22,124 bases of DNA, from positions 1 through 22,124 of IMG/VR virus record IMGVR_UViG_3300031658_000152; one strand, 5' to 3'. Positions 6,538-19,690 of the stretch are shown piece by piece (the first letter of the stretch is position 1; each line of letters begins with the position of its first letter). Position numbers and translations under genes: made by a program. This stretch comes from a virus. The notes beneath the pieces were generated by a model. It worked only from the letters and a program-made list of their open reading frames with translations. It made no database searches and was not told the origin of the DNA.

Positions 6538-7071
6538 TTATTTTTTTCTATTATTTAAAAATTCTACTAATGATTCTTTTCCTAAATGGATATTTTTATT
6601 TACTTCTTTTTCTACCGAGTGTTTTACTGGTTTCACTTCTTCCAATTCTACAACTTCAACTTCTTCTACTTTTGCAAGTTTAAGCTCTGAAATTTCAGTC
6701 TTTAGTTTTTCAATTTCTTCAAAGAATTGCTCTTTAGATATTGATTCAATAATTTTTTTAGGAGTTGTTTTTTCAGCTTCTAAATCAGGAGCGGCAACTT
6801 CTTCTGTCGCTGGTGCTTCTTCTTCTGCGTTAGCCTCTTTAACTTCTCCAATAATTCCGTCTTGAGCAACTACTAAAAGTCTACCATCTTCTAAAACGTA
6901 TTCGCCAATTGGTAAAGGGATACGTTCTTCTTCTGTGATGATAAATATTTCAGCATTAGCCTCAAAAACATCAGCCTCTACTATAGTACCGTTGTCAAGT
7001 TTCATTTGTTCTAACTTAACCTCCATACTTAGCAAAACCTTAACATCATTTAAGATTTTTTTGTAATCCAT
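6538..7071 (-). CDS. Acidic, coiled-coil protein, probable capsid scaffold
   Basis: This 177-aa protein is very rich in Glu and Lys. Residues 1-75 form a mixed region (LEQMKLDNGTIVEADVFEANAE and IPLPIGEYVLEDGRLLVV look like a small beta barrel). Residues 80-105 are Ala/Glu-rich and probably disordered, and about 107-150 (IIESISKEQFFEEIEKLKTE and following) should form a coiled coil. The end is basic (VEFLNNRKK). It stands 3 nt before the capsid gene and after the protease gene, the typical place of a scaffold that is cleaved and lost during maturation. The basic C-terminus could bind capsid subunits, as in other scaffolds. Evidence is composition and order; no family was recognised with certainty. 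Confidence 0.6.
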   Translation of the reverse strand: MDYKKILNDVKVLLSMEVKLEQMKLDNGTIVEADVFEANAEIFIITEEERIPLPIGEYVLEDGRLLVVAQDGIIGEVKEANAEEEAPATEEVAAPDLEAEKTTPKKIIESISKEQFFEEIEKLKTEISELKLAKVEEVEVVELEEVKPVKHSVEKEVNKNIHLGKESLVEFLNNRKK

Positions 7072-7103
7072 ATTTTTACAGTTATTAATTAATAAATTCT
7101 ATA

Positions 7104-7137
7104 CAATAAACATAAAGTATAGTTTTTTGTTATAAAT
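7104..7137 (-). promoter_or_regulatory. Candidate late promoter, bipartite motif (copy A), with inverted repeat
   Basis: Minus-strand box 1 is ATTTATAACAAAA and box 2 is TTATGTTTAT, with the same 18-nt C-to-G spacing as the other copies. It lies 66 nt before the ATG of the scaffold gene. A perfect 6-bp inverted repeat, CTATAC at 7099-7104 and GTATAG at 7117-7122, encloses box 2, which the other copies lack; it could be an operator or a transcript hairpin. Confidence 0.55.
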
Positions 7138-7144
7138 TCAATTA

Positions 7145-7759
7145 TTATAATTCACCTTTTTCAATAGCTTTTATAATCTCTTTTATTAAAAATTCAGATT
7201 CATCTTCTGTTAGTTCGTCAACTGTCTTTTCAATAGTTTCAGTCATTTCTACTTTGTCGGCAAAATAGCCCTCAATACTAAAACCTTTAACCTTTCCAGT
7301 CTTTACATAATCATTCCAAATATTATCGTTATCTACTTTCATAGAAACCATCCACGTGCCTACAGGAACATTAAAACCATACTTTGCAGACTTGTCTTGT
7401 TTAACGTCATCTACTATCCAACTTTCAACAACCGTCATATCTTTTAGTTTACTTTCGTGTTCTAAGGTTGCGTTACTTTGGTTGTTTTGTTTAAGGTATA
7501 ATTGAGATGCTTTAACTACGGTTTCTTTTGAAAAGAAGATATAAAACTCTTTATCTTTTATACGTCTATAAATGTTCTTATCTGGTATTAAAGCCGCTCC
7601 CATTAAAATACGTTTTTCAGTATCTATTGTAGCGAGTTGTATCTCATTACTTTTTAATGCTATAAAGTCAGATTCAATAGCTGGATTTTCAACAACACTA
7701 ATAGCTTCAACTCCGTTTATTTCTTCGTTTTCGTCTATTATTAACTCAATTATTTGCAT
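7145..7759 (-). CDS. XkdF-like prohead protease
   Basis: This 204-aa protein matches the XkdF-type putative serine protease family. The N-terminal half starts with IIELIIDENEEINGVEAISV and ENPAIESDFIAL, followed by ILMGAALIPDKNIYRR and EFYIFFSKETV. A candidate catalytic His is His101 (in LEHESKL), with Glu112 in VVESWIVDD and the likely nucleophile Ser161 in GKVKGFSIEGYF. In phage assembly this enzyme trims scaffold and capsid proteins inside the prohead. It lies upstream of the scaffold and capsid, the usual order within a head module. The C-terminus (about 170-204) is acidic, helical and may bind the scaffold or be removed by self-cleavage. Family assignment is firm; catalytic residues are assigned from pattern only. 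Confidence 0.8.
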   Translation of the reverse strand: MQIIELIIDENEEINGVEAISVVENPAIESDFIALKSNEIQLATIDTEKRILMGAALIPDKNIYRRIKDKEFYIFFSKETVVKASQLYLKQNNQSNATLEHESKLKDMTVVESWIVDDVKQDKSAKYGFNVPVGTWMVSMKVDNDNIWNDYVKTGKVKGFSIEGYFADKVEMTETIEKTVDELTEDESEFLIKEIIKAIEKGEL

Positions 7760-7772
7760 AAGTTTATTTTAT

Positions 7773-7806
7773 TATTAAACAATATTTATAGATTTTTGTT
7801 ATAAAT
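7773..7806 (-). promoter_or_regulatory. Candidate late promoter, bipartite motif (copy B)
   Basis: Minus-strand box 1 is ATTTATAACAAAA and box 2 is TATTGTTTAA, again with 18 nt between the key C and G. The motif starts exactly 47 nt before the ATG of the protease gene and its first base is inside the tape measure stop codon. It would separate head-gene transcription from the preceding tail genes. Confidence 0.55.
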
Positions 7807-9527
7807 TAACCGAATGTAGCGTTGTCTACAATATTTCTATCCAAACTTTGCTGTGTTGTAACATCGTTACTAACTACATATGCTTTTACAGGTTCTTGCG
7901 TTTGCCCACCTATTGCACTCGCTAATTGATTTGTTCCACTTGTACCTACTACGTTAAATTGTGGAGCTTGTGCTTGTTGTGGTGTTTGTACAGAACCACC
8001 AGCACCTCCACCATTTGGAGTTTTTACAGATAATATAGCTTTTACATTTGCTAAACCACTTGCAACCGCTACACCAGCTGCTAAAGCTGCACGTATTGGT
8101 GCGTCTGGAGTTGGTATTAATAATTGAGATTCATATGCTTTCTGTGCTGCTAAGTAAGTTGAAATAGTTGTAGATGCAATTGCTGCTGCTTTACCTGCTG
8201 CTGTTTCTTTACCTACTAAACCACTAATAGCACCCAATGCTTGACCATAAGAATTTAAAGCGTCATTCTTTGCTTTAGTTTCTAATTCAGATATTTTTAT
8301 TTTCTTTTGGGAGGCGCTCCATTCTTTTGCTACTCTTAAATCTTCTGCATCTGTTACTATTTTTTCTTCTTCATCTAAGAATGTTTGTAAATCTTCATTG
8401 TCTTTTATTCGTTGTTCTGCTAATTTTTCACGCTCTTTTATTTTAGCATCTTCTATTTTTTTAGCTCCTGCTATTTCTTCATTTTGAAATGTAGTTAATG
8501 AAGTCTGTAATCTTTTTTGTAGATTTAATTTAGCAGTATCTAATTGTATTCCTTTCGCTTTTAATTCAGCTACTTTATTTAAGTCTTCTTTTGTACTTCC
8601 TGATAGTTTATTCTCAGCTATTTGTGCGTTTAATCTTAATCTATTAGCCGCTATTTCTTTATTCGCTATCCTTTCAGATATATCAGACGCATCTTTTAAA
8701 AACTTAATCCTTTCAGTTGCATTAAATTTATCTCTTTGCTCAGATTTGAAACGTAATTCAGCTATATCTCTATCTGCTTTTGCTCTTTCAACTATTAAAC
8801 CACGCTCTATTTTATCAGCTGTAGCTCTTTTATCTGCTATTTTAGCCGCTTCTTTAGCGTCGGCAGCAGCTTCTTTTGCTAATTCTTTTAACGCTGCCGA
8901 AGCATTCCTAATAGATTCTGTTAAATTATCAGTACCTAAAGCAACTTTTGCAACTGCATTACCAGCCGTTTCAGCAGCACCAGCAAAATCAAGTTTAAAC
9001 ATTTGCCCCATTGCTTTACCTAAAGCAGGAACTAACTCTAATAAGCCCTCAAACCTATTTATTACATTTTCTTTTAATAATTTAACAAAATCATTAATTG
9101 CTTTTTTAGGATTTTCAAATACCCATATAATTTTTTCACCTAATGACGCTAATAAATCAACTAAATTACCAGTTACAGAACCGATAACACCCATTAATTT
9201 AGCATACTTATTTTGTCCTTTTTCAGAATTTGTAAACGCAGCTTTAACAGCTACAATAGCAATTAATAAAGCACCAATACCAGTACCTATAATAGCAACT
9301 TTTAATAAATTAAAACCACCACTAACAGCTTTAACAGAAGAAAGCATACCTTTAAATTTAGATACCGCTCCACCAGTCATTTTATCTAAAGTGCCACCAA
9401 CCTCATTTGATGCTTTGCCTACTTCTTTAGTTTCTGTTTTTACACCTTTTAAAGATTTATCTAACTTATCAACACTTTGTACAGCACCGTCTGTTTTTAC
9501 TTGTATCTCAATTACTTCTTTTTTCAT
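7806..9527 (-). CDS. Tape measure protein
   Basis: This 573-aa protein has the standard layout of a tape measure protein. Residues 1-60 begin KKEVIEIQVKTDGAVQSVDKL, a common opening of this family in which the second half is helical. A strongly hydrophobic segment lies at about 74-98 (VAIIGTGIGALLIAIVAV), and a long Lys/Glu/Ala-rich coiled-coil region at about 205-430. An Ala/Gly-rich C-terminal part (about 435-510) includes AIASTTISTYLAAQKAYESQ and ALAAGVAVASGLANVKAIL. It sets tail length and helps DNA enter the cell. At about 0.15 nm per residue, a rule of thumb, it implies a tail of roughly 85 nm, a rather short siphovirus tail. Its start overlaps a 49-aa ORF by 20 nt. Confidence 0.85.
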   Translation of the reverse strand: MKKEVIEIQVKTDGAVQSVDKLDKSLKGVKTETKEVGKASNEVGGTLDKMTGGAVSKFKGMLSSVKAVSGGFNLLKVAIIGTGIGALLIAIVAVKAAFTNSEKGQNKYAKLMGVIGSVTGNLVDLLASLGEKIIWVFENPKKAINDFVKLLKENVINRFEGLLELVPALGKAMGQMFKLDFAGAAETAGNAVAKVALGTDNLTESIRNASAALKELAKEAAADAKEAAKIADKRATADKIERGLIVERAKADRDIAELRFKSEQRDKFNATERIKFLKDASDISERIANKEIAANRLRLNAQIAENKLSGSTKEDLNKVAELKAKGIQLDTAKLNLQKRLQTSLTTFQNEEIAGAKKIEDAKIKEREKLAEQRIKDNEDLQTFLDEEEKIVTDAEDLRVAKEWSASQKKIKISELETKAKNDALNSYGQALGAISGLVGKETAAGKAAAIASTTISTYLAAQKAYESQLLIPTPDAPIRAALAAGVAVASGLANVKAILSVKTPNGGGAGGSVQTPQQAQAPQFNVVGTSGTNQLASAIGGQTQEPVKAYVVSNDVTTQQSLDRNIVDNATFG

Positions 9528-10798: not shown

Positions 10799-13700
10799 TT
10801 ATTTATTATTTATTAATTCTTGAACTAACTTTTTCAAGTCGTTTAAATCTTCCTTTATTTGTTTATTTTCTTTCTTCAATAAATGAATTTCAGCTGAATG
10901 TAAGTCAATATAACTTACCTGCTTTATTCCATTTGCTTCAGATACAAATTCTGGATTTGTTTTTTCTAACTCTTGAGCTATAACTCCATATCTAATTATC
11001 CCCTTAACTTTCTTAAATTCGAATTGTTGATAATTGGATTTAATTTCCTTATATCTAATATCTTCAATTTTCGTTTTAAGTTTTTTATCAGATCCTAAAA
11101 TGAAATCATTTGCTGTTATTGTATAAACAGTTCCTGCATTCCATGAAGATACCAAAGTAGTTAATTGGATATTGTTTACCAGTGAAGATATTCCATTTCC
11201 CCCAATTACATTAAGTGTCGGATTTATGGTACTAGTTCCAGATTGAGTCATCCCATTTCCAGCTGTTACATTTGTAACTGTACCGCTGCTTCCACCCCCT
11301 ACTATATCACTTAAAAAAGCTAATGTGCCCGAGCTATTTTGTAATGTATATGTGTTTTCTTGTGTGGCTGCTGGAAATTGTAATATACTTTTAGAGCTAG
11401 TACCATTATACGCACCTATTTGAGCTGTAGTCGCTTGCATATATAAAAAATGACTAGTAGGGGCTGTGTTATCTATAACGTTAATAGTACCTGCATATAT
11501 ATTAGAACTACCTATACCATCACTTACTGTTATTACATTTGTAGTAGTGTTACCTATATCTGTAACGCTCTGTAAGTCGGTAGCTCCACCGCCTAAACTA
11601 GATAATAACACAGTACCACCACCGCCTAATAATGCAAATGCATCGTCTGATGTTGTATTTATAAATGAGTTTGCGTTTATATCATTTGTAGTTATATCAC
11701 CAGCATCTGTGACCTCTTGCAGTGTTGGTGTTATTGCAGTATCTAATGTAGCTAATAATTCAGACGTACCTACTAATTCAGCAAACATACTGAGTGTGCT
11801 AACTTGATTTATACGTGCTAACATTGTAGATGTACCGCTTAAATTAGCTAATAATGTACCTATCGTTTTAGCTGTTAAAGCACCTCCTATGTAGTTTAAT
11901 AAATTTAATTTTACATCGCCACTAGTTAAATTAATATCTAGTGAATTTATAATATAGTTTTTACCTCTAATTTCAATTAAATCATTTAACTTTAATTTGT
12001 TTAATATTTTTAAAGGTAGGTTTGCTTTATAAACATATTCACGTCTTTTGCTATCGTATAAATCTGTTATGTAATCACGCCAAAACGTATTAAATAAACT
12101 AGCTGACTGTGTTGTTAAATTCCAGCTGCTCATTTCAGAACCAAAATTTAAAGACATTTCACTAGCGCCATCTATAACAGAACTTTCAGCACCTACGTTT
12201 AAGTAGTTTGATATTTTAGTAGACGTACCATTTTCATCTAAAAAACCTATGTATTGTCCAGTGTCAACACTACCTCTATTAAAGAATAATATGGGGGGTA
12301 ATACTACGGGTTTTAAATCTTTATCAAATGCACTACCTACTTGTATATTAGTTTCAGCTCCAGTTGTAGTGTCTGTTAATTTTTCCATTAACATATTCTC
12401 AAACGGAACTTTAATATCTAACGTACCACCATCAACATTAAATTCAGCTTCTAAATCTCCATAACCAACTTTATTAGTGTCAAAGAAATTATAACCAACA
12501 ATAGCCTCAGCCTCTTCATATTTAAAATTAATATTTTTATATAACTTAGGTTTGTTTATATCGTAACTTTCAACATCTACATATTCTGTTAAATTTTTAT
12601 TTCCACCATCTAAATACCAACTATCTAAAGTGTCAATGTTAAAACTTGTATATGATAAAGGTTCAATAACTAAATTAAACATTTTAACCAACCCTTTAAA
12701 AAAGTCTGCTAATTTAATATTAGGTAAATTGTTTCCTATTTGTAAATCATCTGTAATAGTTTGAGATGAACCTAAAGTTGTATAAGTGTTAATAGTAGCG
12801 CCATTAACTACTTCTTTTTGTTGCCAAGTAGATGTGTAAATAAATTCGCTATCGCTTTCAACTTCTATTCTTAAATTCCAAATTTGCTCACCGCTAACAG
12901 TACCATCAATACCAAAGAAAAAACCCTCAATTTGAAGTCCGTTATTTCTAAAAGATTCATATATTAAATCTTCATCGTTATAAACTTTAAAAGTATAACT
13001 TACATTTTCATAACCAGATGCAGCTGTAATAACACCAAGTTGTCCCCACGAGATTCTTTGATTACTTGATACTGTTCCAAAAGTTGTAAAAGTACCTATG
13101 TCGGTTGTAAAATTAACATTATCACTATCGCCACCATTCCAATCTACCGTTAAACTATTAGCACCTATATTACCTGCAACCGTTCCGTTAAGCCACATAA
13201 ATAACTCATCAATAGAATTTGTTGTATTCTTAAAAAAGTTATTAGTAAAAGTAACCTCATATTCAGCCTCAATAGCCTCAATAATTCTATTAATTTTAAT
13301 AGCTGGTTTTAACTCCCTGTAATTAATACCTTGCGATGGTATTGAAGCGTTGTATTTTATTTCATTTGCTACTGTTGGTGAGTTATAATCCCAATTACGT
13401 TCGCTACTAATTAAAGGATATATTATATTACCATCTTTAATACCATTTTGTAAACCGTCTATAACATTATTAAAATCATAATCGTGGTTGTATGCCGACA
13501 GATTTAATTCACTTAGTAAATCATCAGCAAATAAATCTGTTAAATTAATTAACTCACCGTAAAAAGTAATCTTATAATTTTCAGCAATACCATTCTTTAA
13601 TTTAACACTTTCTAATTGTATCTTACCTAGTTTATATCTAACACCGTTTAGTTTTAATTCAGCTTCTTGCCTAATACTAGCATTAAAACCCCCTGTTATA

Positions 13701-13888
13701 TCTGAATTATACCAGTGCTTAAATATCTTATTATTTTTTTTAGATGTTGGTACTGTAAATGATTTAGTAAAGTCTGAGAATACCTTACTAATGTCTTTAA
13801 TATTTTGTACGCTAGAATTTAAAGATACAGTTTCATCTTTAAATAAATCTAACCTTTCATTTTGTATGTAAACTTCTAAACTGTACAT
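10799..13888 (-). CDS. Tail hub/fibre protein with C-terminal S74 self-cleaving chaperone
   Basis: This 1029-aa protein is the largest complete gene. Residues 1 to about 670 begin MYSLEVYIQNERLDLFKDET and look like a folded baseplate or tail-hub region with many beta strands. About 670-720 is a helical linker, and about 723-930 is a fibre stalk with two related LQxVTDxGxxTTN units and Gly/Ser/Thr-rich strands. The last 99 residues are an S74 intramolecular chaperone domain: GSDKKLKTKIEDI with the Ser933/Lys938 pair, spaced five residues apart as in endosialidase, followed by YGVIAQELEKTNPEFV and a C-terminal coiled coil. Such domains trimerise the fibre and then cut themselves off before the Ser. 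The combination of hub and chaperoned fibre in one chain suggests it spans the tail tip. S74 identity is strong; the hub role is inferred. Confidence 0.8.
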   Translation of the reverse strand: MYSLEVYIQNERLDLFKDETVSLNSSVQNIKDISKVFSDFTKSFTVPTSKKNNKIFKHWYNSDITGGFNASIRQEAELKLNGVRYKLGKIQLESVKLKNGIAENYKITFYGELINLTDLFADDLLSELNLSAYNHDYDFNNVIDGLQNGIKDGNIIYPLISSERNWDYNSPTVANEIKYNASIPSQGINYRELKPAIKINRIIEAIEAEYEVTFTNNFFKNTTNSIDELFMWLNGTVAGNIGANSLTVDWNGGDSDNVNFTTDIGTFTTFGTVSSNQRISWGQLGVITAASGYENVSYTFKVYNDEDLIYESFRNNGLQIEGFFFGIDGTVSGEQIWNLRIEVESDSEFIYTSTWQQKEVVNGATINTYTTLGSSQTITDDLQIGNNLPNIKLADFFKGLVKMFNLVIEPLSYTSFNIDTLDSWYLDGGNKNLTEYVDVESYDINKPKLYKNINFKYEEAEAIVGYNFFDTNKVGYGDLEAEFNVDGGTLDIKVPFENMLMEKLTDTTTGAETNIQVGSAFDKDLKPVVLPPILFFNRGSVDTGQYIGFLDENGTSTKISNYLNVGAESSVIDGASEMSLNFGSEMSSWNLTTQSASLFNTFWRDYITDLYDSKRREYVYKANLPLKILNKLKLNDLIEIRGKNYIINSLDINLTSGDVKLNLLNYIGGALTAKTIGTLLANLSGTSTMLARINQVSTLSMFAELVGTSELLATLDTAITPTLQEVTDAGDITTNDINANSFINTTSDDAFALLGGGGTVLLSSLGGGATDLQSVTDIGNTTTNVITVSDGIGSSNIYAGTINVIDNTAPTSHFLYMQATTAQIGAYNGTSSKSILQFPAATQENTYTLQNSSGTLAFLSDIVGGGSSGTVTNVTAGNGMTQSGTSTINPTLNVIGGNGISSLVNNIQLTTLVSSWNAGTVYTITANDFILGSDKKLKTKIEDIRYKEIKSNYQQFEFKKVKGIIRYGVIAQELEKTNPEFVSEANGIKQVSYIDLHSAEIHLLKKENKQIKEDLNDLKKLVQELINNK

Positions 13889-14907: not shown

Positions 14908-15420
14908 TTACTCTGTTATTATATTATTTAAATCCAATCCAAAAGCATCAACTACTTCACTAGGTAAATCTTTAAAAGCCGCTTCAAAAGGTTTAGTAAA
15001 AAAGTGAGTTGGCTTAATACCTTTTCTTTTTTTAGCTATCGCTATTGCAACTCCTATACTTTTATAATTACCCTTAGCAAATTGACCTCCTAAACTTCTA
15101 AAACGTATGCCTCTAAACTTAGCCCAACGTGCAAAAGTTCCTGTAGCTAATTCAAACCCTAATAAATTACTACTCGCTTTATATGAGTATGGTGTATTAT
15201 ATTTTCGTTCAGTACCACTAACTCCTTTGTCTTGAAAGTCTGCATAATCTTCCATATAAAAGGACAAACTAAAACTATTGGCAGATACATTCAATTGATA
15301 GTCTAAGCTGTTATATAAATCCTTTGTAACGTTCTTTTTTTGTCGTGTAAGGTTTGCTCTTGACCTACTTATAACACGCTTACTAAACGTTTCTAAACTT
15401 TGTTTTACATTACTTAACAT
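14908..15420 (-). CDS. HK97 gp10-like tail completion/head closure protein
   Basis: This 170-aa basic protein resembles the HK97 gp10-type family. It has an N-terminal helix (VKQSLETFSKRVISRSRANL), a strand pair with FSLSFYMEDYADFQDKGVSG, the central KYNTPYSYKAS, and a C-terminal part with AIAIAKKRKGIKPTHFFTKPFEAAF. The YADFxDKGVxG and KGIKPTxFFxxP motifs are typical of these proteins in Bacteroidota phages. Such proteins sit at the head-tail interface and finish the neck or tail. The gene overlaps the upstream tail-terminator-like gene by 7 nt and is followed 1 nt later by a distal tail gene. Family resemblance is good; which interface it serves is not decided by the sequence. Confidence 0.65.
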   Translation of the reverse strand: MLSNVKQSLETFSKRVISRSRANLTRQKKNVTKDLYNSLDYQLNVSANSFSLSFYMEDYADFQDKGVSGTERKYNTPYSYKASSNLLGFELATGTFARWAKFRGIRFRSLGGQFAKGNYKSIGVAIAIAKKRKGIKPTHFFTKPFEAAFKDLPSEVVDAFGLDLNNIITE

Positions 15421-15869
15421 ATCGTTCCGTCATTAGCAATATCAACATCAAATGTTACAGTCCACCCAGCTAATAACATTTCTAACTTACCTGTAAATGG
15501 TTGCATTGACGGCGTACCGTTTAACTGAAATAATTCATCTCTTAAATCACCCCTATCTAAACGCTGCATTAATCTATTAATAACTGATAGCTGTGTGTTT
15601 AAAACATCTTGCTCATTGTCATTACCTAAAAATTTATCAGTAGTATCTTCTTTAGATATATCTACAATATCAGCACACGATAACTCAATACTAAAAGTCC
15701 ATACGTTAGAATTAAACACAGCATTTGTTATTACAAAGTTAGCTAATGGAAATATAGACTGTTTATTTAAGTCTACTTTTGAGCTGTTACCAAATATAAT
15801 AGTCTTACAAAAAGCATCTTCAAGTAAACTATCTTTTATTTTAGTTGTTAAATTGTAAAAACCACGCAT
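15414..15869 (-). CDS. Probable tail terminator or neck protein
   Basis: This 151-aa protein begins MRGFYNLTTKIKDSLLEDAF and shows the alternating helix-strand order of tail terminators: an N-terminal helix, a strand SIFPLANFVITNAVF, a strand TFSIELSCADIVD, a long helix (about 92-112) with LNTQLSVINRLMQRL, and a C-terminal strand AGWTVTFDVDIAND. Tail terminators form a hexameric ring that caps the tail tube and binds the neck. The gene lies 3 nt after the chaperone frameshift gene and overlaps the gp10-like gene by 7 nt, the pair that usually accompanies a terminator. Assignment rests on predicted fold and order, not on a catalytic motif. Confidence 0.5.
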   Translation of the reverse strand: MRGFYNLTTKIKDSLLEDAFCKTIIFGNSSKVDLNKQSIFPLANFVITNAVFNSNVWTFSIELSCADIVDISKEDTTDKFLGNDNEQDVLNTQLSVINRLMQRLDRGDLRDELFQLNGTPSMQPFTGKLEMLLAGWTVTFDVDIANDGTIC

Positions 15870-15872
15870 ATA

Positions 15873-16636
15873 TTATTTTTTAAATCCTTTTTTAATTTGT
15901 CTATTCTCATAGTTTGCTTTATCAATTGTATAAGATAAATACATTAAACATCCGTGTAAAGGGTACTCGCTAACTGGTGTTTCTGAATTGATTGGCTTGT
16001 CTTTAGTCCCCTCGATAATTCTGCTAACGTTGCTTTCAGCGAGTGTACATAACTCTTGATAGCTTCCCCATTTTGCTCCGAAATGCTTCCGTTCTTCGTT
16101 TGTTTCTCCATCTCCTTCTCCAAATAATTCGGGATACAATTCAGCAATTCGTTTGTTAAATTGTAAAAAAAAACCATTGAACCTAATACAACCGATAAAG
16201 GCATTTGCTTCATTAACTCGCTATACTCTTGCGTACCTTTGTAATCTTCTATAATATACTTATGTCCTTGCTTTTGTTTGATAGGTCGGTACAAAACAGA
16301 CATAGCCATATTCATTTTCTGCCAATCGTTTACATACGTTGTAACGTCTTTATTTTCTCCGTATGTAATAGCATCTAGGTTTGGTATAAAACCGAATGTG
16401 ACACCGTTTAAATCAAATGTAAGTTGGTGTTGTTGTTCTACTTCAAACAAACTATTTATATGTATTACAAGCCTATCAATTTCACTTGCTTTAATATTGT
16501 TAATTGCTTTAATATCTAAGTCTAAAAAACAACTTAATAAGTCATCGTTTGTAGGTTCTTCTATTAGTAAGAAGTTTTGATATTGTTCAAGTGTAATATC
16601 GTTTAGAGATTCTGGTATGTTAATTTCTACATTCAT
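15873..16636 (-). CDS. Predicted -1 frameshift product of the chaperone gene (GT-like, about 254 aa)
   Basis: A -1 slip on the T run at 16165-16173 would join residues 1-157 of the upstream frame to 97 residues of a second frame ending at 15873. The new tail starts LQFNKRIAELYPELFGEGDG and carries a recognisable domain with FGAKWGSYQEL, YPLHGCLMYLSYTIDKANYE and IKKGFKK; I recall a KWGWY...CLxYLxxxKxxxE pattern in Bacteroidota phage proteins. The second frame is open upstream only to a TAG at 16221-16223 and has no ATG before its domain; the only near-standard start is TTG at 16139. This layout matches the G/GT tail-assembly chaperone scheme, in which the longer form recruits tube subunits to the tape measure. 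That role is inferred; the gene is far from the tape measure here. Confidence 0.6.
15944..16636 (-). CDS. Tail assembly chaperone-like protein, unshifted form (230 aa)
   Basis: Starting at ATG 16636, this frame opens with NVEINIPESLNDITLEQYQN, then a helical region, VTFGFIPNLDAITYGENKD, a helix WQKMNMAMSVLYRPI and SVVLGSMVFFYNLTNELLN near the slip site. Residues 159-205 (LEKEMEKQTKNG, then SYVHSLKATLAELSR) look like genuine helices, so this frame appears to be coding beyond the slip site too. It stands between large terminase and the tail-terminator-like gene, and a copy of the late-promoter motif lies just upstream. Similar opening and IPxLDxxTxxE segments occur in flavophage proteins whose role is often unassigned. 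The G-like tail chaperone call comes mainly from the frameshift architecture. An unrelated structural protein remains possible. Confidence 0.65.
   Translation of the reverse strand: MNVEINIPESLNDITLEQYQNFLLIEEPTNDDLLSCFLDLDIKAINNIKASEIDRLVIHINSLFEVEQQHQLTFDLNGVTFGFIPNLDAITYGENKDVTTYVNDWQKMNMAMSVLYRPIKQKQGHKYIIEDYKGTQEYSELMKQMPLSVVLGSMVFFYNLTNELLNCIPNYLEKEMEKQTKNGSISEQNGEAIKSYVHSLKATLAELSRGLKTSQSIQKHQLASTLYTDV
16165..16173 (-). promoter_or_regulatory. Slippery run of nine T, candidate -1 frameshift site
   Basis: On the minus strand the codons read GTT TTT TTT TAC (residues 155-158). A back-slip of one base continues with TTA CAA TTT, entering exactly the frame that encodes the second domain. 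The run fits X XXY YYZ pairing with all bases T. A run of nine also allows RNA polymerase slippage as an alternative. No clear downstream pseudoknot was identified by eye. Confidence 0.6.
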
Positions 16637-16676: not shown

Positions 16677-17879
16677 TTAATACACATAATAGTTTCCTTT
16701 GTTTGGATTGTCTAAATGGAATATAACATTGTAACGGATGCCATCAATAGCGTGGTTAAAGTCATCAACATACAAGTTGGACTTCTTATCTGTATAAACA
16801 TAGTTGTTCATTTCCTTAGCTATGTTATTACTATTAGGTTCTACAATAATCTCATAGTCTTGCATCCTTGAAATACCGCTTTCTATTGTACCTTTTTTAA
16901 CAGCTTGAATATTCACACCTAAAGATTGTAAGTCGGATATTAAACGAGGCTCTGCACTATCAGCAATTATAAGTTTGTTCTGTACCCTATCGAGTATAAT
17001 AGTAGCTAGTTCGTGTGATTTTATACCCTTACGGTATAGATGTTCTTTAACGTATATTTTCTTTTTAGTTTTATCTATTGCTACTTCTGTTAATGTATCA
17101 GGGTCAACACTGAAACCGAAGTCCATACCACAACTTGTTTGAAGTCCATCAGGATTAAACGCACCGTAAGTCCATTTATCAAATACAACACCCTCAGCTT
17201 TATCTAACCAAGCTCCAAGTATAACACTATTGTATTTCTTTATATTATTCTTTTTGATACGTGCTACTTCATTTAGAAAACTTTCATCTAAGTTATCAAC
17301 ATTATTTAAGTATGTTGTATGTATATAAGTTACATTATCTTTTACGCCATTAAAACCAGCGGTAACTCCAGACTGCTCAAAGAATCGTTTGTATATCCAA
17401 TGTTCTTTTGTAGCTGGATTTAATATAAGTATAACTCTATTTTGTACACCTTTAGTTCTTAATGATAGGTTTATTTTGTCGAATATAGTTTCATCTGTTA
17501 GCTCCTCAGCTTCATCTAAAATCCACGTTGTAACACCTTGCAATGATTTAAGGTTTGCTGTTTGGTCACCACTTGAAGTTTTTAATCCTTTAAATATTAT
17601 TTCACTATCTGATAAAGTATTTTTTATTTCATTCCTACTTACTTCAAAGTAATCGTTTAATTCTAATAAATCTATTTTCTCTTGAAACTCAGGAACGATT
17701 GACAAATGGGCAGATGTCATTGTTTGCCTTGTGAATAGTATTTTATGATTAGGCTCAAATGATAAGAGGCTAGTAAATCTACCAACCTCAAATGATTTAC
17801 CAGAACCACGACCACCAGTAAGAATAAAGAAACGTGTGTTATTACCTAACGCATCCCATATTTTATTCTGTTTCTCCAT
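16677..17879 (-). CDS. terL: Terminase large subunit
   Basis: This 400-aa protein is the DNA-packaging motor and nuclease. The ATPase part has Walker A GGRGSGKS (residues 22-29), Walker B WILDEAEE (119-126, Asp122/Glu123) and a coupling motif LILNPATKEHW (about 151-161). The nuclease part has an RNase H-like set: Asp253 in CGMDFGFS, Asp307 in IIADSAEP and Asp379 in FNHAIDGIRY. This order and spacing match the PBSX/terminase-3 type. It binds the portal and cuts the concatemer. It overlaps the small subunit by 17 nt, implying coupled translation. At 400 aa it is near the usual length for the family and all key residues are present. Confidence 0.95.
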   Translation of the reverse strand: MEKQNKIWDALGNNTRFFILTGGRGSGKSFEVGRFTSLLSFEPNHKILFTRQTMTSAHLSIVPEFQEKIDLLELNDYFEVSRNEIKNTLSDSEIIFKGLKTSSGDQTANLKSLQGVTTWILDEAEELTDETIFDKINLSLRTKGVQNRVILILNPATKEHWIYKRFFEQSGVTAGFNGVKDNVTYIHTTYLNNVDNLDESFLNEVARIKKNNIKKYNSVILGAWLDKAEGVVFDKWTYGAFNPDGLQTSCGMDFGFSVDPDTLTEVAIDKTKKKIYVKEHLYRKGIKSHELATIILDRVQNKLIIADSAEPRLISDLQSLGVNIQAVKKGTIESGISRMQDYEIIVEPNSNNIAKEMNNYVYTDKKSNLYVDDFNHAIDGIRYNVIFHLDNPNKGNYYVY

Positions 17880-19663: not shown

Positions 19664-19690
19664 TTTATAACAAATTAAATCGTACATTTA
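19659..19690 (+). promoter_or_regulatory. Second rightward host-type promoter
   Basis: TTTG (19659-19662), a 20-nt spacer and TACATTTA (19683-19690) match the Bacteroidota promoter at all but the last base. The spacer contains ATTTATAACAAA (19663-19674), identical to box 1 of late-motif copies A-C and also 47 nt from the ATG at 19710. Confidence 0.6.

Follow-up and report, generated by a model that had tools for sequence, protein, structure and literature searches.

A conserved run of nine or ten T's in a terminase-linked phage gene: a -1 frame switch and a candidate site of transcriptional slippage

In lambda-type G/GT systems, virions contain neither of the two forms, of which the short one binds the tape measure and the long one recruits the tube protein. 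Lambda G/GT and P2 E/E' lie in the structural region of a tailed phage and yield, from a single start, a short product and one extended in the -1 frame, a layout shared by the gene described here. Both known pairs shift at a single heptamer (in the P2 record the -1 site of E/E' is annotated at position 19685, and gene E ends 20 bases further on), whereas the present family carries a run of 9-10 T's. The overlap of the two frames is about 7 codons in P2 and 25-90 codons in this family, and the tape-measure gene, next in line in lambda and P2, lies far downstream here. There is no demonstrable homology between these pairs and the present family. In the phage G/GT pairs that have been studied well, the shift is made by the ribosome (PMC5009743).

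Slippage at runs of nine A's or nine T's has also been described (PMC1088944, PMC5009743). Thermus dnaX, Shigella mxiE and IS elements resemble the present case in having at least nine A's or T's within an open reading frame and a product from the other frame (PMC1088944, PMC5009743). They differ from it in that we describe a phage gene beside the terminase, with a T run on the coding strand and a long dual-coded stretch, conserved over hundreds of diverse phages, and in that slippage is here proposed from the sequence. In the literature searched, no paper links this gene to transcriptional slippage; slippage and tail chaperones are named together in a few reviews and surveys, which take the chaperone shift to be ribosomal.

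Among annotated phages, tblastn matched only the cultured Nonlabens phages P12024L and P12024S, at 25% identity. Their gp40 and gp41 (phrog_32199/phrog_38404-type) occupy the same position after the terminase and have the T9 run, from which the -1 frame continues into gp41 with its -1 domain. They differ in their annotation as two hypothetical proteins and in a zero-frame tail of only about 24 codons. We propose for the whole family that the -1 fusion would be made by slippage of RNA polymerase and that the two products would work like lambda G/GT, and we put the probability of this explanation as a whole a little below 0.6.

The gene, its two frames and its relatives

The window, by which we mean the whole stretch of DNA analysed, is a 22,124-base IMG/VR virus record in which the terminase, portal, protease and tape-measure genes are all on the minus strand (Table 1). 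The zero-frame ORF matches phrog_32199 (E=1.3e-13), and its residues 155-158 are encoded by GTT TTT TTT TAC. The -1 frame begins FFLQFNKRIAELYPELF, and its product reads FFLQFNKRIAELYPELFGEG...FGAKWGSYQEL...CLMYLSYTIDK...KKGFKK, which gives a predicted fusion of 155 + 99 = 254 aa. An earlier note on this DNA had given the same coordinates, codons and fusion length, all of which were correct on recheck. The AlphaFold model of the zero-frame product has a mean pLDDT of 84, with values mostly above 90 in the N-domain and of about 60-77 in the helices after the run; the model of the -1 domain reaches 63, too low for a fold search.

Table 1. Features of the window that bear on the frame switch (positions of the window)
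Feature	Position	Strand	Remarks
Terminase large subunit, directly upstream of the zero-frame ORF	16677..17879	-	PF04466, 1.7e-31
Zero-frame ORF, 230 aa	15944..16636	-	ATG at 16636; N-terminal domain (residues 1 to ~155) and predicted helical tail past the run
Nine-T slip run	16165..16173	-	Codons GTT TTT TTT T(AC)
-1 frame from run to stop, 99 codons	15873..16172	-	C-terminal KWGSY-type domain, phrog_38404-like in other members
Dual-coded stretch, ~73 codons, zero and -1 frames	15944..16164	-	Synonymous-shuffle and substitution tests
Next downstream gene, 151 aa, phrog_30964	15414..15869	-	PHROG match; function not assigned
Tape-measure protein candidate	7806..9527	-	phrog_3336 tail length tape measure, 1.2e-10

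Relatives were collected from IMG/VR and from scans of genome contigs. The gene was found at 440 loci, of which 314 are distinct around the run and 312 have the run covered; at L186 and L372 the run is not seen, apparently since the locus ends near it. These 312 distinct relatives span IMG/VR, the two cultured Nonlabens phages and Bacteroidota bins. The terminase gene is upstream of the frame-switch gene in 287 of them, and the phrog_30964 gene is downstream in 241. Because the two genome-contig matches belong to one Psychroflexus bin and one other Bacteroidetes bin, the hosts of the family are probably Bacteroidota. A scan of 395 genomes from the phylum of one bin revealed no copy of the gene outside that bin.

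Frame use and selection on both sides of the run

The -1 domain is retained in all intact copies but one among the 312 distinct relatives, and in none of the relatives was the KW domain found in the zero frame or the two domains fused in frame. In the 239 loci of the common register, stops in the -1 frame are present before the run and are absent from codons 0 to +19 after it. The comparative evidence shows the -1 transition to be programmed and under selection, and the transition at the T run that the earlier note had proposed is conserved across the relatives, with 9-10 T's and the -1 domain kept.

The one exception is L083, where a stop (TTA TAA) stands in the -1 frame straight after the T9 while the domain beyond is intact. 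The base may be in error, the copy may be dead, or the -1 frame may be entered by a different route.

Beyond the run, the two frames are open over the same bases. When the synonymous codons of the window were redrawn with the -1 protein fixed, the zero frame stayed open this far in 0.5% of the shuffles, and with the zero-frame protein fixed the -1 frame was open in 0 of 2000, so that the overlap in the window is not due to chance. The same test on 31 representatives gave probabilities below 0.03 in each direction in most of them, although these representatives are related and thus not independent. Substitutions were compared in 43 disjoint sequence pairs. Their shares at the three zero-frame codon positions are 0.24/0.16/0.60 before the run, 0.21/0.46/0.33 in the overlap and 0.19/0.56/0.25 past the zero-frame stop. 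Within the overlap, 497 changes are nonsynonymous in the -1 frame against 645±12 expected, and 650 are nonsynonymous in the zero frame against 716±10 expected, each expectation being conditioned on the synonymous and nonsynonymous classes of the other frame; zero-frame stops number 8 against 46 expected. From this pattern and from the counts below expectation, the -1 frame is judged to be dominant in the overlap, and the zero frame to be held open and more weakly constrained. The conservation of the zero frame is in part only apparent, since its NGDGI motif is the other reading of KWGWY.

The long dual coding suggested by the earlier note is thus supported by both the shuffle and the substitution tests. 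Its length, which had been taken as unusual, turns out to be the norm of the family, in which the overlap counted from the run has a median of 59 codons and a range of 25-90. Short zero-frame tails, 25-27 codons from the start of the run, occur in the two P12024 phages and in the IMG/VR loci L344 and L351. A long zero-frame tail is, on the example of P12024L and P12024S, usual in the family and not indispensable.

The separate gp41 annotated in the Nonlabens phages (L002 4444-4695 and L003 4444-4695) starts at an internal ATG. Read literally, such an annotation makes the second domain an independently started gene that overlaps the first, as given for P12024L gp41, and for the window a start is available in the TTG at 16139. 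That TTG is the earliest start codon of the -1 frame in the window, with no ATG or GTG before it, as the earlier note had stated for the region ahead of the domain, and it lies within the conserved stretch. Across the family, the conserved -1 residues (FFLxF, R, Y, ELF) start right at the run, before the TTG of the window and the internal ATG of the Nonlabens phages. Upstream of the KW motif the -1 frame has no ATG in 278 of 296 loci and no ATG, GTG or TTG in 179 of 296, and under an independent start nothing would maintain the T run. We therefore regard separate initiation as very improbable. The homologues with two independently started genes that would have spoken against a frame switch did not materialise, and by the evidence of the family gp41 of P12024L and P12024S would be the end of the gp40 frameshift product.

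Homopolymers are generally error-prone, and the T run might be seen as a sequencing or assembly error, or as a phase-variable repeat in a broken gene. However, it is found alike in hundreds of assemblies and in the genomes of two cultured phages, no locus has both domains in one frame, and both frames are under selection, which leaves next to no weight for either idea.

Length and register of the T run, and the level of the slip

The run consists of nine T's in 283 and of ten T's in 29 of the 312 distinct loci, always uninterrupted and never shorter. Loss of the run among homologues, or resequencing that gave eight or ten T's, had been named beforehand as grounds for rejecting the frame switch; the run is conserved throughout (9-10 T's in 312 of 312), and some relatives do carry ten T's, yet with the -1 relation preserved. 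Most runs begin at codon position 2 (GTT/CTT/ATT TTT TTT TNN), 33 begin at position 1 (TTT TTT TTT GTT and similar) and six at position 3 (GGT TTT TTT TTC and similar). On a FastTree phylogeny of 297 N-domains, with the slip columns left out, parsimony requires the register to have changed at least 14 times and the length 10 times, always between nine and ten. A context search of IMG/VR that allowed 6 to 11 bases at the run recovered 73 family members, all 73 with T9; the few hits of other lengths, including one T8, were unrelated sequence on inspection.

Such runs are rare in the surroundings of the gene. Other long ORFs at the same loci, 261,052 codons in total, contain 52 T7, four T8 and one T9. 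On the coding strand of these ORFs, long T runs are far rarer than long A runs, which count 57 A8, 8 A9 and 5 A10. In the upstream part of the frame-switch ORFs, TTT makes up 74% of the Phe codons and T-ending codons 36% of those for Val, Leu (CTN) and Ile; a perfect run in every lineage is therefore not a product of codon bias. At a length of nine nucleotides, A/T runs are clearly selected against in a large share of bacterial genomes (PMC1088944).

In the mechanism that we favour, one gene would give two proteins with a common start. Most mRNAs would be read in the zero frame, yielding the N-terminal domain with its helical tail (230 aa in the window). On the run of 9-10 T's, RNA polymerase would slip by adding one U or dropping two, and this shifted minority of the mRNA pool would be read in the -1 frame after the nine T's, yielding the N-terminal domain fused to the KWGxY domain (254 aa). 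The N-domain alone would be made from transcripts that lack one U, as the +1 frame closes within six codons past the run in 280 of the 312 loci.

Slipping by the ribosome or by the polymerase yields the identical protein, and the level of the slip has to be read from the run and its surroundings. RNA structure is a common, though not obligatory, stimulator of programmed -1 ribosomal frameshifting. Pseudoknot-free folding of 60-base windows in 31 representatives found no RNA structure flanking the run, with a mean z of about 0. In-frame T_TTT_TTT requires nine T's in register 0, eight in register 1 and seven in register 2, and registers 1 and 2 never shorten to eight or seven T's in the 312 loci. 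A polymerase does not see codons, and slippage by it would call for just such a length, held constant while the register changed at least 14 times. Since the length is constant in all three registers and RNA structure is lacking, we consider transcriptional slippage the probable level of the switch.

In the competing account, the ribosome would make a programmed -1 shift on U_UUU_UUU, helped by weak stimulators or by none, and the extra T's would reflect an amino-acid constraint or a second overlapping slippery heptamer. This account is in keeping with the in-frame T_TTT_TTT found in every locus, which any run of nine or more T's includes, and a low efficiency would be enough for it. In register 1, the codon that opens with the ninth T mostly encodes Tyr or Trp (rarely Cys or Ser), and this aromatic-codon constraint may explain part of the run length in that register. 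Precedent also lies on this side, the shifts of lambda G/GT and P2 E/E' being ribosomal (P2 annotation; PMC5009743). Against it stand the persistence of 9-10 T's through all the register changes, though seven or eight would suffice in two of the three registers, the absence of structure around the site under pseudoknot-free folding, and the finding that in E. coli U_UUU_UUU shifts far less readily than A_AAA_AAG (PMC5009743). On balance the ribosomal account seems a serious but rather doubtful alternative to polymerase slippage.

Neighbourhood, possible role and meaning

A G/GT-like role, in which a tail-assembly chaperone would be made in an abundant short and a scarce long form, is proposed solely on the gene layout, with a short protein and its -1 extension both encoded among the structural genes; on this analogy we think such a role somewhat probable. 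The earlier note had pointed to the same scheme. What stands of it is a short ORF that a -1 frame change would lengthen, as the conservation of both frames and of the run attests. The place directly upstream of the tape-measure gene does not hold, the tape-measure candidate being about 6.6 kb downstream of the T run with six genes between, at a distance comparable to that in relatives. Resemblance to known chaperones is likewise faint: Pfam Phage_TAC_7 matched 2 of 18 members, below the cut-off (L103, E=0.0041, residues 10-70). The fold search with the zero-frame AlphaFold model gave no PDB match at E <0.9, significant matches in the viral library were to uncharacterised phage proteins only, and a sequence search of solved structures returned nothing or chance-level matches. 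The gene is thus not classed among the lambda-type G/GT chaperones, although a role of that kind is plausible by analogy.

P2 gpE was also considered as a homologue, and an hhalign probability of 1% (P=0.045) over a match of 28 columns only was insufficient.

Three other features of the window were observed. At 6538-7759, two adjacent ORFs, one encoding a 204-aa protease-like protein and the other 177 aa, match separate parts of the 349-aa phrog_24921, so that a protease-scaffold protein appears to be split across two genes. The 1029-aa tail protein at 10799-13888 has a C-terminus that resembles an S74-type self-cleaving chaperone domain (a reading of the sequence, with weak tail-fibre PHROG matches). 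Long GxQGIQG collagen-like repeats at 3-1904 open a probable tail fibre, which runs off the window.

Taken together, we tentatively suggest that widespread uncultured phages make a tail-chaperone-like pair by slippage of RNA polymerase, with an obligatory run of 9-10 T's and 25-90 dual-open codons, though as a combined statement this falls short of an even chance. If true, these phages would hold the first G/GT-type switch to be set at transcription and not at the ribosome, as far as the literature searched shows, and under polymerase slippage the ratio of the two products would be set at transcription. The fixed length of the run while it crosses three registers offers an unusually clear evolutionary test of polymerase versus ribosome, and the long dual-coded stretch lets the evolution of overlapping frames be followed in many natural replicates. 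For the cultured relatives the annotation is corrected, two 'hypothetical' genes becoming one gene with two products, and an unannotated, strongly conserved frame-switch gene is added to hundreds of uncultured phages.
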